Positions 4,908-15,987 of a DNA stretch of 62,377 bases are shown in pieces. Position 1 is the stretch's first letter, and every line of letters begins with the position of its first letter. The notes under the pieces are model-generated. The model ran no database searches and had not been told where the DNA came from. It saw only the letters and a list, made by a program, of their open reading frames with translations. The stretch comes from Chloroflexota bacterium (GTDB lineage: Bacteria; Chloroflexota; UBA11872): assembly GCA_028874175.1 (NCBI GenBank), contig JAPPLN010000037.1, forward strand, positions 1 through 62,377, in the 5' to 3' direction. The position numbers and the translations under genes were made by a program.

Positions 4908-5558
4908 CTACTGGCGCTGAACCGCGTCGAAGAACTCGGCGCGGGTGGCGGGGTTGTCGCGGAACGCGCCGCGCGTGATCGATGTGACCATCCGGCTTCC
5001 CGGCTTCTTGACGCCGCGCATGGTCATGCAGGTGTGTTCCGCTTCGATCGTCACCGCCACGCCCACCGGCTCCAGCACCTGCTCGATGCGGTCGGCGATC
5101 TGGCAGGTCAGGCGCTCCTGGACTTGGGGTCGTCGCGCCAGGTGTTCGACCACGCGCGCCAGTTTGCTGAGTCCGACGATGCGTTCGTCTGGGATGTAGC
5201 CCACCGCCGCGCGCCCAAAGAACGGCAGCAGGTGGTGCTCGCAAATCGAGTAGAAGGGGATGTCCCGCACCACGATCATTTCGTCGTGGGCGTGCTCGAA
5301 CGTGGTCGCCAGGTAATCGTCGGGCTCGCCGACCAGACCGGCGAAGAGCTCCTCGTACATGCGTGCCACGCGCCCCGGCGTCTTGACCAGGCCGTCGCGG
5401 TCGGGGTCCTCGCCGATCGCGATCAGGATCTCCCGAATTGCCGCCGCGATCCGCTCATGGTCGACTCGCAGCGTGCCGTTCGGCGAGACGCGGGACGCGT
5501 CGGTGGTGTGCGGGACGGACACGGTCGGCGTTCCGTCGTGCAGGGGCGCTGAACTCAT
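4908..5558 (-). CDS. folE: GTP cyclohydrolase I
   Basis: FolE converts GTP to 7,8-dihydroneopterin triphosphate, the first step of folate/tetrahydropterin synthesis. The 216-aa protein carries the zinc ligands Cys106 and His109 in [10 protein letters not shown] and Cys177 in [12 protein letters not shown], spaced as in the E. coli enzyme. [24 protein letters not shown] is the family signature. An N-terminal extension of about 30 residues is poorly conserved. It lies between rpiB (34 nt upstream) and gntR (10 nt downstream). folB, a later step of the same pathway, is 3 kb away on the same strand. Confidence 0.95.
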
Positions 5559-6349: not shown

Positions 6350-7111
6350 ATGGCCACAGCCGACGGTTCAACCGCTCCGCAAGACCTGCCCGGTCGCCTC
6401 TTTATCGTCGAAGGCATTGACGGATCGGGGAAGAGCACGCAACTTGACCTGCTCCACAAGTGGCTGGTGAGCCAGGGTTACCTGGTGATCTTCACCGAGT
6501 GGAACTCGTCGCGGATCGTCCGTCGCACCACGAGGCGCGGAAAGCGCCGCCGCATCCTGACCCCCCTCACCTTCAGCCTCATCCATGCGGCCGACTTCTC
6601 CAGCCGCGTGCACGAGCAGATCATTCCGGCGCTACAAGCGGGCGCCATCGTCCTTGCCGATCGCTACGTCTATACCGCCTATGCCCGCGACGCGGCCCGT
6701 GGCGTCAGCGCGGGGTGGCTGCGACGGCTCTATTCGTTTGCGCCCGACCCCACGCTGGCTTTCTACTTTGATGTCCCACTCAACGAGGCGATCCGTCGGA
6801 TCGAGCTCGGCCGCGATGAACTTAGCTACTACGAAGCCGGCTTGGATCTGGGTCTGAGTGGGGATCCCGCCGAATCGTTCCGACAGTTCCAGGGCATCAT
6901 TCGCGACCAATACGGGAAGCTGGTTGACGAGTTCGGTCTGGAACGCATCGACGCCACCGACACCCTCGTGAATCAGCAGGAACGCATGCGGGCGCTTGTA
7001 CAACCGCATCTGGATGGCGCGATGCGAGCCGAAGTTTCGGGACTGCAGGAAGCTCTGGCGGCGACCGGTCTCAGTGGACGGTACCTGGCCGACATGTGGC
7101 GGGCGCTATGA
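6350..7111 (+). CDS. Thymidylate kinase-like protein, first of a tandem pair
   Basis: This 253-residue P-loop kinase is of the dTMP kinase type (dTMP + ATP to dTDP). Walker A is GIDGSGKST (22-30) and the DRY motif that positions the nucleotide monophosphate is LADRYVYTAY (104-106). A basic segment RRTTRRGKRRR (about 58-68) replaces the usual REPG-type loop after strand 2, which is atypical. The C-terminal extension exceeds the usual 210 residues. The stop codon overlaps the ATG of a second homologue (ATGA), so the two are translationally coupled. It could phosphorylate dTMP or another nucleotide. Confidence 0.8.
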   Translation: MATADGSTAPQDLPGRLFIVEGIDGSGKSTQLDLLHKWLVSQGYLVIFTEWNSSRIVRRTTRRGKRRRILTPLTFSLIHAADFSSRVHEQIIPALQAGAIVLADRYVYTAYARDAARGVSAGWLRRLYSFAPDPTLAFYFDVPLNEAIRRIELGRDELSYYEAGLDLGLSGDPAESFRQFQGIIRDQYGKLVDEFGLERIDATDTLVNQQERMRALVQPHLDGAMRAEVSGLQEALAATGLSGRYLADMWRAL

Positions 7112-7824
7112 GTCTTCCGGTCAATCGCCCGTTACGTTTCTACGGCGAGTCGCCGCCGGGGATCGATCTCAGCCCGCTGCCCGGCCGCCTCATCGTGGTA
7201 GAGGGCCAGGATGGTTCGGGTCGCTCCACCCAGATCCGCCTGATGAAGGAGTGGCTCGAAGATCACGGGTTTGGCGTCGTCGATACCGGGCTGACGCGTT
7301 CTGAACTGGCCGGCCCTGGGATTCGGCGTGCTAAGTCGGGGCACGATCTGGACCCCATCACCCTGAATCTGTTCTACGCCACCGACTTCTATGACCGCGT
7401 TGAACGGCTGATCATCCCGTCACTCCGCGCCGGCATGGTGGTCCTGGCCGACCGCTACATCTTTTCCATGATCGCCCGTGCCGCCACCCGCGGCATCGAT
7501 CCCGCCTGGACCGCCGACATCTACGACTTCGCGCCGGTTCCCGACGCGGTCGTCTACCTGGATGTGGACATTGAGCATCTGCTACCGAGAATTTTAATCA
7601 ACGGCGGGTTCGACTTCTGGGAATCGGGGCTGGACGTTATGCGGGGTCAGGACGTCTTCGAGAGTTTCCTGAGCTACCAGGCACGCATCAGCGCGCACTT
7701 TCATGAACTTGCCAGGCAGCACAAATTTTCGGTTATCGATGCACGTGGACCGATCAAGAATACCTTTGAAACCATCCTTAAGGAACTTCAGCGCGTGGTG
7801 GACGACATGCGCTCAACGCCGTAG
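7108..7824 (+). CDS. Thymidylate kinase-like protein with Arg in Walker A, second of a tandem pair
   Basis: This 238-residue paralogue of the preceding gene starts at the ATG that overlaps its stop. The P-loop reads GQDGSGRST (33-41): the invariant Lys of Walker A is Arg39, encoded by CGC at about 7222. The DRY motif is kept (LADRYIFSMIAR, 115-117). In P-loop kinases the Lys contacts ATP phosphates, so activity may be weak, altered or lost, and the protein may form a heterodimer with the first copy. That is inference; dTMP kinases are homodimers. Confidence 0.75.
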   Translation: MSLPVNRPLRFYGESPPGIDLSPLPGRLIVVEGQDGSGRSTQIRLMKEWLEDHGFGVVDTGLTRSELAGPGIRRAKSGHDLDPITLNLFYATDFYDRVERLIIPSLRAGMVVLADRYIFSMIARAATRGIDPAWTADIYDFAPVPDAVVYLDVDIEHLLPRILINGGFDFWESGLDVMRGQDVFESFLSYQARISAHFHELARQHKFSVIDARGPIKNTFETILKELQRVVDDMRSTP

Positions 7825-8750: not shown

Positions 8751-9128
8751 TTATCGTGTGCGGTCGATGGTGACTGCCGCTTCCCGGAGAACCGACCCCG
8801 CGATCGCCACGCCCGGCTTTGCCACGCGAACACGTACCCTCTGGACTTGCGAAAACCGCTTCAATACTGCCTGTGCGATTCCCTCGGCGAGTGTTTCGAG
8901 CAGTTTCACCGGCTCGCCTTCCACGATCTCGGCCACAAGTGCGTACACCTCGCTGTAGTTCACCGTCGAGTCCAGCGCATCGGTTGCGGCCGCGTTACGC
9001 AGATCGGCGTCAAGGTCCAAGTCCACGATGAAGCGCTGACCCAACGTGCGCTCTTCCGGCCGCGCGCCGTGATAGCCATACAGCGTGATCCCTGCCAGGC
9101 TGATGGTGTCAGGTGGCATTGCTGGCAT
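8751..9128 (-). CDS. folB: Dihydroneopterin aldolase
   Basis: FolB cleaves dihydroneopterin to 6-hydroxymethyl-dihydropterin in folate synthesis. The product of about 125 aa shows ITLYGYHGARPEERTLGQRFIVDLDL, the active-site Tyr in STVNYSEVY, Glu in LLETLAEGIA and Lys in VRVAKPGVAIAG. Start choices are ATG 9128 or ATG 9119. Both lie inside the end of the upstream methyltransferase gene, whose stop is at 9109-9111, so the genes overlap and are coupled. It supports a folate role for folE nearby. Confidence 0.9.
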   Translation of the reverse strand: MPAMPPDTISLAGITLYGYHGARPEERTLGQRFIVDLDLDADLRNAAATDALDSTVNYSEVYALVAEIVEGEPVKLLETLAEGIAQAVLKRFSQVQRVRVRVAKPGVAIAGSVLREAAVTIDRTR

Positions 9129-9969
9129 CAGCCTCTCGCCGCGAGCGCACCGCGTGATACAGCACGAGCGCGCCGGCGACCGACACATTCAACGAACCCA
9201 CGCCACCGTACATCGGGATTCGCAGGGCCGCGTCGCAGGCCTTGCGGACGCCAGGACGGACGCCGCGGGCTTCGCCGCCCACCACCAGGCAGGTCGGGCG
9301 GCTGAAGTCCGCGGCGGTGAAGTCGGTATCGCCGTCCTGCTCCAGCGCGTAAACCCAGGCGCCCGCCTCGCGCAACTGATCGAGGGCTCGTGCGATGTTG
9401 GCAACCTGGACCAGCGGCGTACGCAAGCTGGCCCCGGCTGATGCACGGGCCAGTCCCCCGGTGAGCGCGGCCGAGCGACGCGCGGGCACGATGGCGCCCG
9501 CCCCATCCACGGCCTCCAAGGTCCGCAATAGCGCGCCAAGATTGCCCACGTCCTGAACCTGATCCGCGGCCAGGATCAGCGGTGGCCCGCCAGCACTGTC
9601 GCCTTCAAGCAGATCCTCGATCGACGCTGGCGGCGGGGAACGCACGGCCGCGACCACGCTCTGATGCTGACCGCCGAAACTCAGTTGGTCGAGTTCCGAC
9701 ACGTCGGTAAACGTGACCGGAACGGCCGCCGTCGCGGCGAGCGAACGAACGTCGGCCATCGCCTCGGCCTGCTCCCGTGCGATAAAGACGCGCTCGACGC
9801 TGGTGCCGCGCCGCAGGGCTTCCGTGACGGCGTGCCGTCCCCAGACGCTGGCTTCGGCGGGTAGTTGCGGTCGGCCTACCCGCGACGCCAGACCGTGCCG
9901 TCGGGCGTGTCTTCGAGCACCACGTCGAGGGCGCCCAGATCGTCGCGAATTGTGTCGGCGAGCTCCCAT
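9109..9969 (-). CDS. rlmB: TrmH/SpoU family RNA 2'-O-methyltransferase (RlmB-like)
   Basis: This SPOUT-fold methyltransferase is probably specific for 23S rRNA G2251. Motif 1 is DQVQDVGNLGALLRT, motif 2 VVGGEARGVRP and motif 3 IPMYGGVGSLNVSVAGALVLYHAVR. An L30e-like substrate domain precedes them (WGRHAVTEALRRGTSVERVFI). The ATG at 9969 makes a very Arg/His-rich 30-residue leader and a 94-bp overlap with cysS. No other ATG, GTG or TTG lies between it and the conserved domain, so I keep it. cysS-rlmB order matches Bacillus-type genomes. Confidence 0.88.
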   Translation of the reverse strand: MGARRHNSRRSGRPRRGARRHARRHGLASRVGRPQLPAEASVWGRHAVTEALRRGTSVERVFIAREQAEAMADVRSLAATAAVPVTFTDVSELDQLSFGGQHQSVVAAVRSPPPASIEDLLEGDSAGGPPLILAADQVQDVGNLGALLRTLEAVDGAGAIVPARRSAALTGGLARASAGASLRTPLVQVANIARALDQLREAGAWVYALEQDGDTDFTAADFSRPTCLVVGGEARGVRPGVRKACDAALRIPMYGGVGSLNVSVAGALVLYHAVRSRREADASNAT

Positions 9970-11270
9970 TGCCTGGCCTCTCGCAATTGCTGGCGCAAGT
10001 GCACCAGCAGGTCGATGAACGGCGTCGCATCGTCGGACGCCGCGTCCGGTTCATGCAGTTCGATACCCAGCACGCCCAGCAGGCTGGTAAGCACGCCCTG
10101 CGCTTGTTCGACAGCGTCCGATGAAGACGTCGGCGCCAGGCGGTTGATAGCGCGCCCGAACTCGAACAGTGCGCCGATGGCGCGGGGCGCGTTGAAGTCG
10201 TCGTCCATAGCCGCTTCGAACGCCTGCCGGGCAGTGGCGGCTTCGGAGTCCAATTCCGCGCCGGATGTTTCACGTGAAACATCGGCGCCGCCCTGGGCTC
10301 GGGTGACGGCCAGCAGCCGCTGGTAGCCTGCTCGCGTCTGCTCGATGGCCTCCAGCGAGAACTGCAACGGCGAGCGGTAGTGCACGCCCAGCAGGTAGAG
10401 CCGCAGCACGTCCGGCGGCACATCGGCCAGCACGTCCGCCGTGGTGGTGAAGTTCCCGACCGAGTGCGCCATCTTCTCGCCGTCGGTCAGTACCAGTCCG
10501 GTGTGCGCCCAGTACGAGACGAACGGCGGACGCTCGGTGGCGGCCTCGGCCTGGGCCAGTTCGTTCTCGTGGTGCGGAAAGATCAAGTCCGCGCCTCCGC
10601 CGTGGATGTCGATCTGCTCGCCCAGCGTGTGTCGGATCATCGTCGAGCACTCGATGTGCCAGCCGGGGCGGCCGCGTCCCCAGGGGCTCTCCCAGGCCAC
10701 CGCGCTCTCGCTGTCCAGCTTCCACAGGGCCCAGTCCCGCGGGTCGCGCTTCTCTTCGTCCACCTCGATTCGAGCGCCCGCCGTGCCGTCCTCCTCGGTC
10801 CGGCCGCTTAGCGCGCCGTAGGCCTCGAACGTGCCCGCGTCGAAGTACACGCCGGTCGATGTCGGATAGGCGTGCCCAGCGTCGATGAGTTCCTGCACGT
10901 GGCCGATAATCCCGGGAATGCTGTCGGTCACGCGCGGATATTCGTCGGCGCGCCGAATCTGTAGCCGGTCCATCACCTCGAAATACGCCTCCGTGTACTC
11001 GCGCGCCCATTCCAGCGGGTCGCGGTCGGCCGCCCGCGCCCGGTCGATGATCTTGTCGTCGATGTCGGTGAAATTCTGGACGTACCGCACGTCGTACCCG
11101 CGGTACTCCAGGTAGCGCCGGATCACGTCCATGTGCACGAACATGAACGCGTGCCCCACGTGCGGCCGATCCTTCGGCGTCATGCCGCACACGTACATCG
11201 TGACCGGATTGCCCAGCGGCTTGAACGGCTCTTTCTTCCCGGTGAGGGTATTGGTAATCGCGAGCGTCAA
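9876..11270 (-). CDS. cysS: Cysteinyl-tRNA synthetase
   Basis: This class I synthetase charges tRNA-Cys. The 464-residue protein has the HIGH-like motif PHVGHA (36-41) and zinc-site residues Cys28, Cys208, His233 and Glu237 (WHIECS; FPHHENE). The KMSKS loop reads KMAHSVGN (266-273), with His where the second Lys usually sits. DALR-type and C-terminal anticodon-binding helices follow. The codons for DVSRETS (about residues 329-335) form a perfect parS palindrome (see 10266-10281). It follows ispF by 48 nt and overlaps the rlmB-like gene. Confidence 0.94.
   Translation of the reverse strand: MTLAITNTLTGKKEPFKPLGNPVTMYVCGMTPKDRPHVGHAFMFVHMDVIRRYLEYRGYDVRYVQNFTDIDDKIIDRARAADRDPLEWAREYTEAYFEVMDRLQIRRADEYPRVTDSIPGIIGHVQELIDAGHAYPTSTGVYFDAGTFEAYGALSGRTEEDGTAGARIEVDEEKRDPRDWALWKLDSESAVAWESPWGRGRPGWHIECSTMIRHTLGEQIDIHGGGADLIFPHHENELAQAEAATERPPFVSYWAHTGLVLTDGEKMAHSVGNFTTTADVLADVPPDVLRLYLLGVHYRSPLQFSLEAIEQTRAGYQRLLAVTRAQGGADVSRETSGAELDSEAATARQAFEAAMDDDFNAPRAIGALFEFGRAINRLAPTSSSDAVEQAQGVLTSLLGVLGIELHEPDAASDDATPFIDLLVHLRQQLREARQWELADTIRDDLGALDVVLEDTPDGTVWRRG
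10266..10281. promoter_or_regulatory. parS centromere site (ParB/Spo0J binding)
   Basis: The 16-mer TGTTTCACGTGAAACA is a perfect palindrome identical to the canonical bacterial chromosomal parS sequence. ParB binds it, loads as a CTP-dependent clamp, and recruits ParA and SMC for origin segregation. It lies within cysS, where its codons read V-S-R-E-T. Intragenic parS sites are normal in other bacteria. Most parS sites lie near oriC, so the window may be origin-proximal. Confidence 0.88.
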
Positions 11271-11318
11271 ACGACGAAACCCAGGCTGGCGTGCGATGAG
11301 GGCATTCTACGCAGGGTC

Positions 11319-11810
11319 CTAAGCGGCGCCGCGTGCTACCAGCACGACTGCGTGACAAGCCACCGCATCTCCGGCGCCCACGGCATCGACGCCTTCGTTG
11401 GTCTTGGCCTTGAGGCTGATGCGCTCGGCATCGGTTCCCAGCGCCGCCGCCAATCGCTCCCGCATTGCGTCGGCGAACGGCGAAACCTTCGGCCGTTCCA
11501 GCACGATGGTGAGGTCGGCATTCACCAACTCCCACCCACGGTCCCGCAGGTCCGAGATGGTCTCGGCCACGAATCGCGAACTATCGGCGTCGCGGTTGGC
11601 CGGATCGGTGTTGGGATAGCGTCGGCCGATGTCGCCGCCGCCCGTCGCTCCCAGCAGGGCGTCCACCAACGCGTGCATCGCCACGTCCGCGTCCGAGTGA
11701 CCGACGGCGCCACCGTCCGGCGCGATGTCCACGCCGGCGACCCGCAGCGGCCGATCGGCCCCCAGCCGGTGCAGGTCATAGCCGGTACCGACCCGGTATT
11801 CCGGGTGCAT
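11319..11810 (-). CDS. ispF: 2-C-methyl-D-erythritol 2,4-cyclodiphosphate synthase
   Basis: IspF forms MEcPP in the non-mevalonate isoprenoid pathway. The 163-aa protein starts MHPEYRVGTGYDLHRL, with the metal-binding Asp and His in GYDLH. It continues with GHSDADVAMHALVDALLGA (third metal His) and DIGRRYPNTDP, and ends with SLKAKTNEGVDAVG. The ATG at 11810 fits the family N terminus exactly; the longer frame runs into the preceding reductase gene. ispD, the step two enzymes earlier, is in the same leftward series. The two are separate genes, not an ispDF fusion. Confidence 0.94.
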   Translation of the reverse strand: MHPEYRVGTGYDLHRLGADRPLRVAGVDIAPDGGAVGHSDADVAMHALVDALLGATGGGDIGRRYPNTDPANRDADSSRFVAETISDLRDRGWELVNADLTIVLERPKVSPFADAMRERLAAALGTDAERISLKAKTNEGVDAVGAGDAVACHAVVLVARGAA

Positions 11811-11848
11811 CGGCCTTGCCGGGCTGAGGCCCGGCGCGTCCTGCTCGC

Positions 11849-12772
11849 CTACCAGTAGTCCTCGGTGATGACCTGGGACTCGCGGCCTTCTGTCTCGAAA
11901 CCCTGCTCGGCCAGCACGGGTTTGGCGTCCGCGATCATTTCCGGGTTGCCACACAAGTAGAGTGCCGCGCTCTCGGGCGTCAGGCGTTCCTGCAGGGCGG
12001 CCAGCGGCTCGTCGGGCAGCCAGGGTTCCACGCGACCGCTCATTTCCTTGCCGCAGATCAGGCGCACGGTGTCGTTGGCTCGCCCGCGGCCCATGCCCTC
12101 GGCGAAGTTGGGGTCGCTGTCCGGGCGGCTGACGGTCGGGATATAGACCAGCCCGAAACCGGGATCCGCCGCCATCTGCTCCAACTCATCCTTGTAGCCC
12201 AGCTGATCGGCGTAGGAAACGCCGTGCACGATGGTCAGCCGCCGCTCTACTTGGCCGGTTTCCTGGTACGCGTGCCAGGCCGTGCGCGCCATGGAAACGA
12301 ACGGCGCCAGGCCCGTTCCGGTGGCCACGCACACCGCGTCGGGCTGGCTGGTGCGGGAGAGCGTGAAGCGGCCGGCCGGCCGCGGCATGTAGAGAATCTC
12401 GTCGCCCGGCTTGTGGCGCCACAGCGTGCCCGTGAACACCCCGGGAATGTTGGATCCGTCCTCCCGTGCGTCCCTCACCAGGATCACGTAAAACTCCAGG
12501 TGGTCCAGGTCCAGCGGCGTCGAGCCGATGGAAAGCTGACGCGGCCGCGGGTCGTCGGCGGGCTGGTCCCAGAACGCCAGCATCGTGTACTGCCCGGCCT
12601 CGAACTTGGAGAAGTCGCTGCCGTCCGGCCGCCGGATGGTGAAGATCGCAATGTCTTCGTCGTCCAGCAGCTCCCAGTTGTCCAGCACGGCCCGCTCCAT
12701 CCGTTCGCGAATGTCACGGCGCTTGCGCGTAGTGCGGCGTGGCGTGGTCGGGGCGGCTCGGGCTTCAGACAC
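11849..12772 (-). CDS. Ferredoxin-NADP reductase-type flavoprotein
   Basis: This 307-residue FAD/NAD(P) oxidoreductase has an FAD-binding segment RQLSIGSTP (about 80-88) and then PAGRFTL. The nucleotide-binding domain has CVATGTGLAPFVSM and LYLCGNPEMIADA, and the C terminus ends EDYW with a terminal aromatic as in plant-type FNR and Fpr. Such enzymes pass electrons between NADPH and ferredoxin or flavodoxin. IspG and IspH need low-potential electrons, and this gene lies just upstream of ispF, so a role in feeding the MEP pathway is plausible but inferred. Confidence 0.85.
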   Translation of the reverse strand: MSEARAAPTTPRRTTRKRRDIRERMERAVLDNWELLDDEDIAIFTIRRPDGSDFSKFEAGQYTMLAFWDQPADDPRPRQLSIGSTPLDLDHLEFYVILVRDAREDGSNIPGVFTGTLWRHKPGDEILYMPRPAGRFTLSRTSQPDAVCVATGTGLAPFVSMARTAWHAYQETGQVERRLTIVHGVSYADQLGYKDELEQMAADPGFGLVYIPTVSRPDSDPNFAEGMGRGRANDTVRLICGKEMSGRVEPWLPDEPLAALQERLTPESAALYLCGNPEMIADAKPVLAEQGFETEGRESQVITEDYW

Positions 12773-12902
12773 GCGGAAACTCCAGTGCGGGCAGGTGAAT
12801 TGATGGCCGCGTCAGCTAGCAACGTGCGGCGTCTGGACCGCCAATGATACGCGCTCGGCGTCGTTGCCACGGACCACCTGGAATGCCCGCTGGTGCTGCT
12901 GG

Positions 12903-13892
12903 CTACACGCCGCCGTTCGCCAAGGCCAGAGCCGTCAGCGACCAGTCGCAGAGGTTGCCGAGGCGCAGCGGCAGCGGGGCCCCGCCTTCCATGCCCGGCC
13001 AGACGGTCAGGTCCACGCTGCCGTCCTCCTGCTGGAGCTCGAGCAAGCGTTGGCCCACGGACTCGGCGTAGTCGGTGAGCGCTGAGTCAGGCCGATTGAC
13101 GTTGAGTTGCAGGGCCGCCCAGCCGGTCTTGGAGGCGAACGGCGACGTCCACGGCTCGCCGTGGTGCGACAGGATGACGTCTGCATAGGCGCGGGCCAGG
13201 TCGAAGTGCCGGTCGTCGTCGGTCTGGCGGCCCAGCCAGGTCAGACCCGCGATGGCCGTGGCGAACATGGCCGGTCGGCAGGGGCCGTTCAGATCGAAGT
13301 AGTTCCGGCCGGTTTCCGCGTCCGAGTCGGTGATTACCGATCCATCGGCGTACAGGCCGAAATGGAAGCGGCAGTCCGACTCGGGCTGAAGGTCCATAAG
13401 GCGATCCATGAATCTGGCCGCGTGTTCGGCTGCCTCAAGCTCGCCTGCCGCGGCGCAGCCGGCGGCGGCCGACGAGCTGTTGAGTACGCCCTGCTCGCGG
13501 CCCTGGTGGGTCTCGTTCCAAAATCCGCCCAGATTTGGGTCTTGCTCCTGGATGGCTCGTCGGGCGATTCGACGAGCCAGGTCAAAGCGTCCCAGCGCCG
13601 CGCTACCCCAGGCCAGCCACCCGGCCTGGTACAGAAAGGCGCTGGCGGGGCCGTTGAACTGGTTGTCCTGAAACGATCCGTCGTCCGCCAACAGGTTGCG
13701 CTCGATGTGATCCAGCACCTTCAACGCCAGCTGCCGCCGGTCGCCGTAGGCGAACACGTACGGCAGCTTGAAATGCAACCCGGGGTCGTTGGGATCGATG
13801 CGGCTGCGGCCTTTGCCATCAGTATGGGCGGCCAGGAAGTCCAGCGCGCGGTCGGCGGCCTGTCGATACTCGTTCGCTGTGTCAGTCGTCAT
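12903..13892 (-). CDS. Predicted alpha/alpha-toroid protein of unknown function
   Basis: This 329-residue soluble protein has repeated helical pairs with Trp/Gly-rich turns (AGWLAWGSAALGRFDLARR, DPNLGGFWNETHQG, AIAGLTWLGRQ, KTGWAALQLNVNRPDSALTDYAE). They resemble alpha/alpha-barrel folds seen in prenyltransferase/terpene-cyclase-type and glycosidase proteins, but I see no catalytic motif that fixes a reaction. There is no signal peptide or membrane segment. It sits between ispD and the FNR gene in the isoprenoid-containing operon. Start ATG 13892 or 13901. Function is not assignable from sequence alone. Confidence 0.7.
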   Translation of the reverse strand: MTTDTANEYRQAADRALDFLAAHTDGKGRSRIDPNDPGLHFKLPYVFAYGDRRQLALKVLDHIERNLLADDGSFQDNQFNGPASAFLYQAGWLAWGSAALGRFDLARRIARRAIQEQDPNLGGFWNETHQGREQGVLNSSSAAAGCAAAGELEAAEHAARFMDRLMDLQPESDCRFHFGLYADGSVITDSDAETGRNYFDLNGPCRPAMFATAIAGLTWLGRQTDDDRHFDLARAYADVILSHHGEPWTSPFASKTGWAALQLNVNRPDSALTDYAESVGQRLLELQQEDGSVDLTVWPGMEGGAPLPLRLGNLCDWSLTALALANGGV

Positions 13893-13948
13893 CACTCGCA
13901 CCCCCGCCGGTCTGTCGTCTCAGCCTACGCCCAAATCCGCTATCCGAC

Positions 13949-14650
13949 CTACCGTGCGGCGCCCGCCCGTCGCTGGCGCAGGATGCGCGCCGCCGCATCG
14001 AGATCGTCCGGCGTCGTGATCTTCAGGTTTTCGCGGCTGCCTTCGAACACCCGCACCGGCAGACCCTCGGCTTCCAGCACCGAGACGTCGTCGGTATAGA
14101 GGTCAAGCATCGCGGTCTGCCGTTCGTGCGCGCCCAGCAGGTCCGCAAAGCGGGCGAACTGCGGCGTCTGGGCATGCCAGACCGTCGAACGCAATGGCGT
14201 GCGGATAACCAGGCGGTCGCGATCGACGATCTTCAGCGTGTCCGTGGCGGGAACGGCCGCCACGGCCGCGCCGTAGACTCGCGCCATTCGCAGGCCGTCC
14301 TCGATCAGCATGGTCGTCACCAACGGTCGGGCGCCGTCGTGCACGGCCACGTAATCGGGTGGCTTGCTGTTCAGGGCGCGCAATCCGTGCAGGACTGAGG
14401 CTGCCCGGGAAGAACCGCCGCCCACGAACGCTTGCACCTTGGCCAATCCCGCCTGCGTCACGGCCGAGCGAATGCTCGCGTCGTTGTGTTCGGAAGTCGT
14501 AACCACCACGGCACGGATGCCCTGGCAGGCCTCGAACGCCCGCAGGCTCCACACAATGACTGGGTCGCCTTCCAGGTCCGCCAGCAGCTTGTCCGCGCCT
14601 CCCATTCGCGCGCTGGAGCCCGCGCCCAGCACCACCGCGTCGGCGCTCAC
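13949..14650 (-). CDS. ispD: 2-C-methyl-D-erythritol 4-phosphate cytidylyltransferase
   Basis: IspD makes CDP-ME from MEP and CTP. The 233-aa product has a nucleotide-binding loop VLGAGSSARMGGADKLLADL (usually GxGxRMGxxxPKQ; here K is kept), VAVHDGARPLVT, the TDTLKIV segment, HAQTPQF and TDDVSVLEAEG. The GTG at 14650 overlaps the radA stop (GTGA), so translation is coupled; a longer frame inside radA lacks family similarity. Together with ispF it marks the MEP route to isoprenoids. Confidence 0.92.
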   Translation of the reverse strand: MSADAVVLGAGSSARMGGADKLLADLEGDPVIVWSLRAFEACQGIRAVVVTTSEHNDASIRSAVTQAGLAKVQAFVGGGSSRAASVLHGLRALNSKPPDYVAVHDGARPLVTTMLIEDGLRMARVYGAAVAAVPATDTLKIVDRDRLVIRTPLRSTVWHAQTPQFARFADLLGAHERQTAMLDLYTDDVSVLEAEGLPVRVFEGSRENLKITTPDDLDAAARILRQRRAGAAR

Positions 14651-15987
14651 GCCAGCGCCGCGTCCAGGGCCTGGCGCAGGTTGGCCACGGGCACGGCCGT
14701 GGTCTGGCTGCCGTTGGTCGGCGCGCCAGCCGGGACTACGCAATGGGTGAAGCCCAGGCGCGCGGCTTCATCCACACGCTGTGCGGCCGACGGCACGGCG
14801 CGGAGTTCGCCGGCCAGGCCGACTTCGCCGACCGCGGCCGCTCCCAGGCGCAGCGGTTGGCCGCTGTGGCTGGAGGCGACCGCCAGCGCCACCGCCAGAT
14901 CCGTCGCCGGCTCGCGCAGCCGCAGCCCACCGACCACGTTCACGTAGACATCGTGGGCCGAAAGCCCAACGTCGGCCCGGCGCGAAAGCACCGCCAGCAG
15001 CATGTTCAGGCGATTCAGGTCCAGCCCGTTCGCCAGCCGCCGCGGCAGGCTGTAGGTGGTTGGTGCAACCAGGGCCTGGATCTCGACCAATAGCGGTCGC
15101 GTGCCCTCCATCGCCACGGCCACCGCCGATCCGGGCGCCGTCGCATCCCGGCCAGACAGCAGCATGGCCGAAGGATTCGTCACTTCACGCAGCCCGGCCC
15201 CATCCATCTCGAAAACGGCCACCTCGAAGGTTGGCCCAAAGCGGTTCTTCACCGATCGCAGCAGCCGGTGCGCGTGGTGATCGTCGCCCTCCAGGTACAG
15301 CACCGCGTCCACGATGTGTTCCAGCAGCCGCGGCCCGGCCACCATGCCTTCCTTGGTCACGTGACCGACGATCAGCACCGGCGTGTGCGTGGCCTTGGCG
15401 TATTGCAGCAGCCGCAGCGTCGACTCTCGAACCTGCGTCACGCTGCCTGGGGCCGAGGCCAGCCCGTCGGCGCGTACCGTCTGGATCGAGTCCACCACCA
15501 TCACGCCGGCACCCAGGCGTTCGGCCTCCGCCAGCGCGCCGTCCATGGCGGTTTCGGCGTAAACAAAGAGCCCGTCTCCGCCAATACCCATGCGCTCGGC
15601 GCGCATTCGAATCTGCGCGGCCGATTCCTCCGCGGCCACGTACAAGCAGGGACGCCTGGACGACGCCAGTTCGGCCGCCAGCCGCAGCACCAACGTGGAC
15701 TTGCCTACCCCCGGATCCCCGGCCAGCAGCACCAGCGATCCTCGAACAAGCCCCCCGCCCAGCACCCGGTCCATTTCGCCCATGCCCGAGGGCATTCGGT
15801 CGTCGGCCGACGTGTCAATCTGATCCAGGGCCACCGCCTGCGGCGTCGAGCGCGAACCGGCCGGTCCCTCCGTCACCCGCCGCTCCGCCAGCGAGTTCCA
15901 GGCCCCGCAGACGCTGCACTGCCCCATCCACTGCCGATGCTCCGCCCCGCACTCGGCACAGGCGAACAAACGACGAGGTTTGGCCAC
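14647..15987 (-). CDS. radA: DNA repair protein RadA (Sms)
   Basis: RadA is a RecA-like helicase that promotes branch migration in recombination. The 446-residue protein has an N-terminal C4 zinc finger (Cys10, Cys13, Cys24, Cys27), Walker A GDPGVGKST (90-98), the RadA-specific KNRFG motif (VKNRFGPTF) and a C-terminal Lon-protease-like domain (from about 290; LRLGAAAVGEVGLAGELRAVP). It begins the leftward series radA-ispD and onward. clpC, its usual Gram-positive neighbour, is only 1.2 kb away, separated by two right-facing small genes. Confidence 0.95.
   Translation of the reverse strand: MAKPRRLFACAECGAEHRQWMGQCSVCGAWNSLAERRVTEGPAGSRSTPQAVALDQIDTSADDRMPSGMGEMDRVLGGGLVRGSLVLLAGDPGVGKSTLVLRLAAELASSRRPCLYVAAEESAAQIRMRAERMGIGGDGLFVYAETAMDGALAEAERLGAGVMVVDSIQTVRADGLASAPGSVTQVRESTLRLLQYAKATHTPVLIVGHVTKEGMVAGPRLLEHIVDAVLYLEGDDHHAHRLLRSVKNRFGPTFEVAVFEMDGAGLREVTNPSAMLLSGRDATAPGSAVAVAMEGTRPLLVEIQALVAPTTYSLPRRLANGLDLNRLNMLLAVLSRRADVGLSAHDVYVNVVGGLRLREPATDLAVALAVASSHSGQPLRLGAAAVGEVGLAGELRAVPSAAQRVDEAARLGFTHCVVPAGAPTNGSQTTAVPVANLRQALDAALA

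Follow-up and report, generated by a model that had tools for sequence, protein, structure and literature searches.

The defence-island hotspots of Escherichia coli lie between core genes, according to the section of PMC10121019 that describes them, and the relevant passage of PMC12988326 counts HEC-06 among the Hma-embedded candidates that proved antiviral; no such antiviral statement accompanies HEC-07 in that passage. AprG, the transaldolase of apramycin biosynthesis (PDB 9LFI, 9LFQ with N-acetylglucosamine (GlcNAc), and 9C95), is described in part of PMC11033246 as the aldolase responsible for the octose core of the antibiotic. Here we compare these systems with a locus in 62,377 nucleotides (hereafter, the window) of a Chloroflexota bacterium (GTDB lineage Bacteria; Chloroflexota; UBA11872; contig JAPPLN010000037.1 of assembly GCA_028874175.1), in which ispD and ispF, two genes of the methylerythritol phosphate (MEP) pathway, are separated by a ferredoxin–NADP reductase (FNR) gene and by a gene for an α-helical protein related to AprG. 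An earlier reading of the sequence alone (the sequence-only reading) had taken the series for a MEP operon, in which FNR could supply reducing power to IspG and IspH and the α-helical protein could act on isoprenoids. We consider it probable that the space between ispD and FNR is a variable slot with candidate defence genes, set between two housekeeping transcription units, and not the seat of an extra isoprenoid step.

A variable slot between ispD and FNR

The locus was compared across a set of 41 genomes from the class. Thirteen belong to the window's genus (g1, window included) and six to a second genus (g2), the two genera together forming family f1 (19 genomes); five come from a sister family (f2) and 17 from another three families. 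Spacings between ispD, FNR and ispF are distances between match ends. Both ispD and ispF were detected in 40 of the 41 genomes, and outside f1 they are adjacent, 33–294 bp apart, in 20 of 22, the exceptions being G027, with the two genes on separate contigs, and G032, with neither. In f1, by contrast, the pair is split by FNR and then by variable genes. The spacing between FNR and ispF is 35–56 bp in all 19 genomes of this family, and cysS and rlmB follow ispF in each of the 14 other f1 stretches fetched that hold ispF (folB in 12; the remaining two contigs end soon past rlmB). G003, G004 and G005 have 62 bp between ispD and FNR, and G007 has 199 bp, making four short forms in the family; the distance is 1.2–5.7 kb in seven genomes (G000, G001, G002, G006, G010, G015 and G016). 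The two genes lie on separate contigs in seven more (G008, G009, G011, G012, G013, G014 and G017), and in G018 a rearrangement has left ispD and the FNR block oppositely oriented.

The left border of this slot is ispD (14650–13949, minus strand; longest open reading frame (ORF) 14743–13949; Pfam IspD, E = 2.1e-52; TIGR00453, 193 bits against a cut-off of 181). In the window the slot holds the AprG-like gene (13892–12903, minus strand; 329 amino acids from the ATG at 13892, or 332 from a GTG at 13901), whose orthologues, 68–92% identical, occur in 11 of the 13 g1 genomes (window counted) and in none of the 28 other genomes of the class. The two g1 genomes without it are G007, whose junction is intact, and G011, whose contig breaks off about 160 bp upstream of FNR and whose other contigs yielded no orthologue.

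Relatives carry defence-family genes in the slot. A HEC-07-like gene of 620–660 amino acids, on the opposite strand, is present as a single copy in ten of the 19 f1 genomes, always in the slot or adjoining the AprG-like gene; the three full-length proteins scanned matched PADLOC with E = 1.6e-18, 1.6e-14 and 1.5e-20. G002 and G006 match only about half of this gene, and PADLOC gave no match for the shorter G006 relative nor for a pentapeptide-repeat protein in the slot of G001, which is accompanied by an N6/N4 DNA methyltransferase (E = 5.2e-42; PADLOC MTase_II, E = 5e-69). Distant HEC-07 relatives, 28–33% identical, occur in five genomes of family f5. The slot of G018 contains GmrSD (E = 1.3e-33; PADLOC HEC-06, E = 1.2e-36), and other slot genes belong to Uma2 (Pfam E = 2e-33 in the single copy scanned; PADLOC PDC-S03, E = 2e-15), with more copies recognized by eye at loci L060, L061 and L062. 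A gene for a tetratricopeptide-repeat protein lies directly upstream of FNR in G009.

Two observations concern the arrangement of these loci. In G018 (L066) one strand carries a tandem pair of HEC-07-like and GmrSD/HEC-06-like genes, flanked by FNR and the AprG-like gene. In G009 (L067, 8725–11711) the far side of the slot meets, in place of FNR, a YyaL-like gene and ispH (named by eye), a junction that is either a rearrangement or an assembly chimera; the same YyaL–ispH pair is found on contig 51 of G000 (L115).

Conserved core genes flank this slot, in empty and in occupied forms among relatives, and in these respects, as in its defence-type content, it resembles the E. coli hotspots as that section of PMC10121019 presents them. 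It differs from them in being small (0.06–5.7 kb), in lying between two housekeeping units, in having no recognized mobile-element genes and in holding mostly candidate defence genes. We propose that the core block FNR–ispF–cysS–rlmB–folB would most likely have its own promoter (CGTATCAT) some 70 bp before FNR, and that the space upstream of this promoter and downstream of ispD would be permissive, a place where genes could be gained, lost and exchanged with neither unit broken. Its cargo would be candidate anti-phage genes (HEC-07-like, GmrSD/HEC-06, DNA methyltransferase and Uma2) and, in g1, also the AprG homologue. What appears to be an insertion into a pathway can, on this proposal, be a slot for candidate defence cargo, lying past the end of one housekeeping unit and ahead of the promoter of its neighbour. 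This cautions against assigning functions by association to genes in the ispD–ispF interval, and it marks the slot as a place to seek new defence genes in uncultured Chloroflexota.

The right border of the slot

When the regions upstream of FNR from 12 g1 genomes were anchored at TATCAT, the 8-bp CGTATCAT was the sole invariant run of at least three positions across 105 columns. The thirteenth genome, G017, has CGTATGAT in its place. The distance from the beginning of TATCAT to the FNR start adopted is 75–78 bp (103 bp in G007), and in the window the conserved −10-like element, CGTATCATTG, lies at 12842–12851 on the minus strand, where genome comparison marks it as the probable FNR–ispF promoter. 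All six g2 genomes carry GCTATCCTG, and the stretch common to them starts around GGCTATCCTG, which in the empty forms comes immediately after ispD. This conservation suggests that CGTATCAT is the −10 element of a separate FNR–ispF promoter. Because the 130-bp gap before FNR carries such an element, the eight genes named as one operon probably constitute two transcription units.

Several points weigh against a promoter-bounded defence slot. A sigma-70 consensus scan returned no promoter and no terminator, the aligned regions upstream of FNR show no conserved −35, and the window shows no enrichment of the motif (three matches with at most one mismatch, against 4.5 expected from shuffles). Over 66 pairs of g1 genomes, ungapped likeness is 0.51 for the 40 bp from the element on and 0.46 for the 30 bp before it, values so close that the border in g1 is sharp only for the element itself. 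The slot of the window holds the AprG-like gene alone, which has no PADLOC match, and retention of this gene in 11 of 13 genomes of the genus is more regular than is typical of cargo; with a gap of 56 bp to its ATG at 13892, it could also be cotranscribed with ispD. Neither an integrase nor an att site stood out among the slot ORFs, features for which no systematic search was made, and most of the genomes are fragmented metagenome-assembled genomes (MAGs).

A divergent homologue of AprG

The AprG-like protein has no family match in Pfam, NCBIfam or PADLOC. A phmmer search against the PDB found AprG (E = 6e-10), and a profile of 19 rows raised this match to E = 4.7e-64, with GH76 mannanases and squalene–hopene cyclase far weaker, at 1e-5 to 1e-4. 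An AlphaFold2 model built from 11 rows (pLDDT, the predicted local distance difference test score, 81.8; pTM, the predicted template-modelling score, 0.85; residues 80–82 and 190–205 below 50) bears out the all-α, toroid-like fold that the sequence-only reading had expected. Foldseek placed AprG chains at ranks 1–14 (E = 3.7e-12 to 1.6e-10), some of them complexed with GlcNAc or N-acetylgalactosamine, and E is 2.6e-6 or worse for ranks 15–50 of the best 50 matches, which include an uncharacterized Listeria protein, glycosidases, terpene cyclases and sugar isomerases. Homology over the full length and the predicted fold place the protein in the AprG family, with the lysine of AprG's K-x-G aligned.

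Members of the AprG family, orthologues counted, occur in 24 of the 41 class genomes, 23 of which have a member other than the orthologue; one such paralogue is on contig 29 of the window's own genome. Across a phylum sample of 301 genomes, 31 have matches to the family, a few of them weak only, and matches were seen in distant Chloroflexota families (G297:C114, one of two in G297, G296:C18 and G120:C4). A scan with the orthologue alignment, which used short peptide patterns on one genome per GTDB species and would miss distant members, found 11 loci, ten of them titled as Chloroflexi or Chloroflexota MAGs; a tblastn search for plasmid relatives gave no match. The scan's eleventh locus, L082, is a copy with 87% identity on a 4,395-bp contig that is assigned to a 'Candidatus Binatia' MAG; this copy is probably mis-binned, with transfer as the alternative.

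AprG and the protein described here are 20–22% identical in the fold alignment, and they differ in setting, in that no antibiotic genes were recognized in the operon of the window. We compared ten aligned orthologues with nine paralogues, 19 rows in all, taking the AprG letters from the AprG alignments. Residues common to the paralogues and AprG are replaced in the orthologues: H by A98, E by R310, W by V or I293 and Y by F41, together with D (E in one paralogue) by G135 (W in one orthologue), N (in eight of nine paralogues) by A or S90, and T (S in one paralogue) by P308. Of the residues that AprG shares with the nine paralogues, the orthologues keep K255. It is present in all 19 rows, as is W258; AprG has the lysine and not the tryptophan. 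Because several residues common to AprG and the nine paralogues are lost while K255 is kept, we favour altered chemistry: the protein most likely binds or converts a carbohydrate, and not by the transaldolation of AprG. An unannotated Chloroflexota family is in this way linked to a newly solved transaldolase, and its naturally altered subfamily should be useful for defining which residues the chemistry requires.

Purifying selection and apparent exchange

The median ratio of nonsynonymous to synonymous substitution rates (dN/dS) of the AprG-like gene, calculated with a Nei–Gojobori script, is 0.133 over 55 pairs, a low value that places the gene under purifying selection. Its tree, from 11 genomes, unites G012, G009, G015 and G017 with a support of 100/100. 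The backbone of FNR, ispF, cysS and rlmB rejects this clade (approximately unbiased test, p-AU = 8.5e-30) and groups G012 with G014 and G010, also at 100/100. The clade was named after per-gene identities had been inspected, G017 has 38% of the backbone columns, and G007 and G011, which have no copy of the gene, were left out. In G012 and G015 the AprG-like gene and FNR share one contig, so that a binning error is improbable there as the cause of the conflict. On the strength of these trees, the gene appears to have been exchanged between lineages. Another clade tested, {G000, G009, G015, G016, G017}, is uninformative, both trees having rejected it. The Spearman correlation of dN between this gene and seven operon genes is −0.03 to 0.24 with G018 omitted; because control pairs range so widely, from −0.02 to 0.75, the claim of exchange rests on the tree test and not on these correlations.

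FNR and the weighing of alternatives

The FNR gene (12772–11849, minus strand; NAD_binding_1, E = 3.9e-13; PDB ferredoxin–NADP reductases, best E = 1.9e-14) encodes an FPR-type ferredoxin/flavodoxin–NADP(+) reductase: it is homologous to solved FNRs and shares with bacterial FPR-type enzymes the flavin- and NADP-binding motifs (RQLSIGS, GTGLAP and CGNPEM) and a C-terminal Trp, differing from the PDB matches in a longer stretch before CGNPEM. At E ≤ 0.001, each of the order's 24 genomes has an FNR match; the other 17, from the three remaining families, have none, although ispD and ispF were detected in 16 of them. With looser relatives included, FNR reaches 99 of the 301 genomes of the phylum sample. 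In f2 it lies on a different contig from ispD and ispF in all five genomes, beside RraA-like and biotin-ligase-like genes at three of four fetched loci (L075–L077; names by eye), with a disulfide-oxidoreductase-like gene, also named by eye, on its other side in L076 and L077. From this distribution we infer that FNR became inserted into the ispD–ispF pair at the base of f1. An FNR insertion private to this genome is ruled out by its presence throughout the order and by its linkage to ispF throughout f1. A separate observation is that the FNR frame of one MAG has a single in-frame TGA (G008:C262:12448–13365).

FNR is probably a general NADPH-to-ferredoxin/flavodoxin reductase that may plausibly serve IspG and IspH among others. 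A functional MEP operon, with FNR supplying these two enzymes with electrons and the toroid protein modifying an isoprenoid, is in our view decidedly unlikely, even with the conserved FNR–ispF linkage and with a single FNR match in the genome. NADPH/flavodoxin-reductase or ferredoxin-reductase chains are given as in vivo donors to IspH in E. coli and Plasmodium falciparum in the relevant part of PMC8837944, which speaks for the reductase half of the idea; the separate placement of FNR in the sister family, its absence from the 17 further genomes at the threshold used, and the location of IspG and IspH on other contigs speak against it. The isoprenoid half fares worse. The terpene cyclase MstE is among the weaker fold matches (rank 17, E = 5.5e-6), and among the matches listed the best AprG chain surpasses the leading terpene cyclase by a factor of about a million in E. 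The motif of type II terpene cyclases is DxDD, which occurs in none of the ten aligned orthologues or nine paralogues. On these sequence and fold matches we reject a prenyltransferase or terpene-cyclase assignment. The gene is moreover confined to one genus of the class, sits where relatives carry candidate defence genes and has a tree in conflict with that of the operon, and we would expect a toroid fold of the sugar-enzyme type that is not active on prenyl substrates. The sequence-only reading is in this sense partly borne out: its FNR insertion proves family-wide and linked to ispF, and its isoprenoid-modifying protein finds no support. It had itself set an insertion limited to this genome and a structural match to unrelated glycosidases against its proposal, and the outcome comes close, with a gene limited to one genus instead of one genome and a match to a carbohydrate-active fold.

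The protein might be a working AprG-type aldolase or transaldolase acting on amino sugars and located here by chance, which we regard as unlikely. The profile match, the AprG–GlcNAc complex as best fold match and the invariant lysine favour this, and a paralogue in G000 and G013 lies among genes that by eye resemble transporter permeases and alcohol dehydrogenases, a neighbourhood that fits carbohydrate metabolism; the seven replaced residues (H, D, E, N, W, T and Y) count against it. There is also a slim chance that the slot has recruited the protein for defence or counter-defence, perhaps as a sensor linked to carbohydrates or nucleotide sugars. The HEC-07-like gene adjoins it in eight of the 11 genomes that have it, and its alleles appear to move between lineages; PADLOC, however, does not recognize it, its gene and the HEC-07-like gene face each other in convergent orientation in the loci read, three of the 11 genomes have it without HEC-07, and two have HEC-07 relatives without it. 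A variable slot for candidate defence genes remains our preferred explanation of the locus. Within it, we offer as frank speculation, itself improbable, that a genus-specific AprG branch, having lost family residues under purifying selection and been exchanged inside a candidate defence slot beside an essential operon, may have shifted from sugar C–C bond chemistry to a defence-linked or sensing role.

Other features of the locus

The minus-strand series radA–ispD–AprG-like gene–FNR–ispF–cysS–rlmB–folB is confirmed by gene families and spacings, all eight genes running in one direction with short gaps or overlaps as originally read, with the qualification on transcription units made above. It begins with radA (sms; 15987–14647; TIGR00416, 549 bits against a cut-off of 403), whose stop is overlapped by the GTG start of ispD at 14650. 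FNR is followed after 38 bp by ispF (11810–11319, with a likely ATG at 11810; longest ORF 11954–11319; Pfam YgbB, E = 4.2e-55) and, after another 48 bp, by cysS (11270–9876; TIGR00435, over cut-off). The ORF of cysS overlaps that of an rlmB-like SpoU methyltransferase gene (9969–9109; TIGR00186, 176 bits against a cut-off of 160), which in turn overlaps folB (9188–8751; TIGR00525, over cut-off), a gene lying mostly beyond the 9109–15987 interval first assigned to the series. The IspF, IspG and IspH families each have a single match in the genome. IspD has one strong match, that of the window, and three far weaker ones, which are taken for other nucleotidyltransferases. An NYN-domain protein gene (8530–7940, minus strand; Pfam NYN, E = 4.2e-14) comes after folB, as it does in ten of the 11 other genomes of the genus with a fetched stretch, G007 being the exception.

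Farther along the window, two overlapping genes of the thymidylate-kinase family stand in tandem on the plus strand (6350–7111 and 7096–7824; Pfam Thymidylate_kin, E = 1.4e-20 and 5.6e-23). A GTP cyclohydrolase I gene (4908–5558, minus strand; E = 1e-76) lies about 3 kb from folB, placing two genes of pterin synthesis close together.

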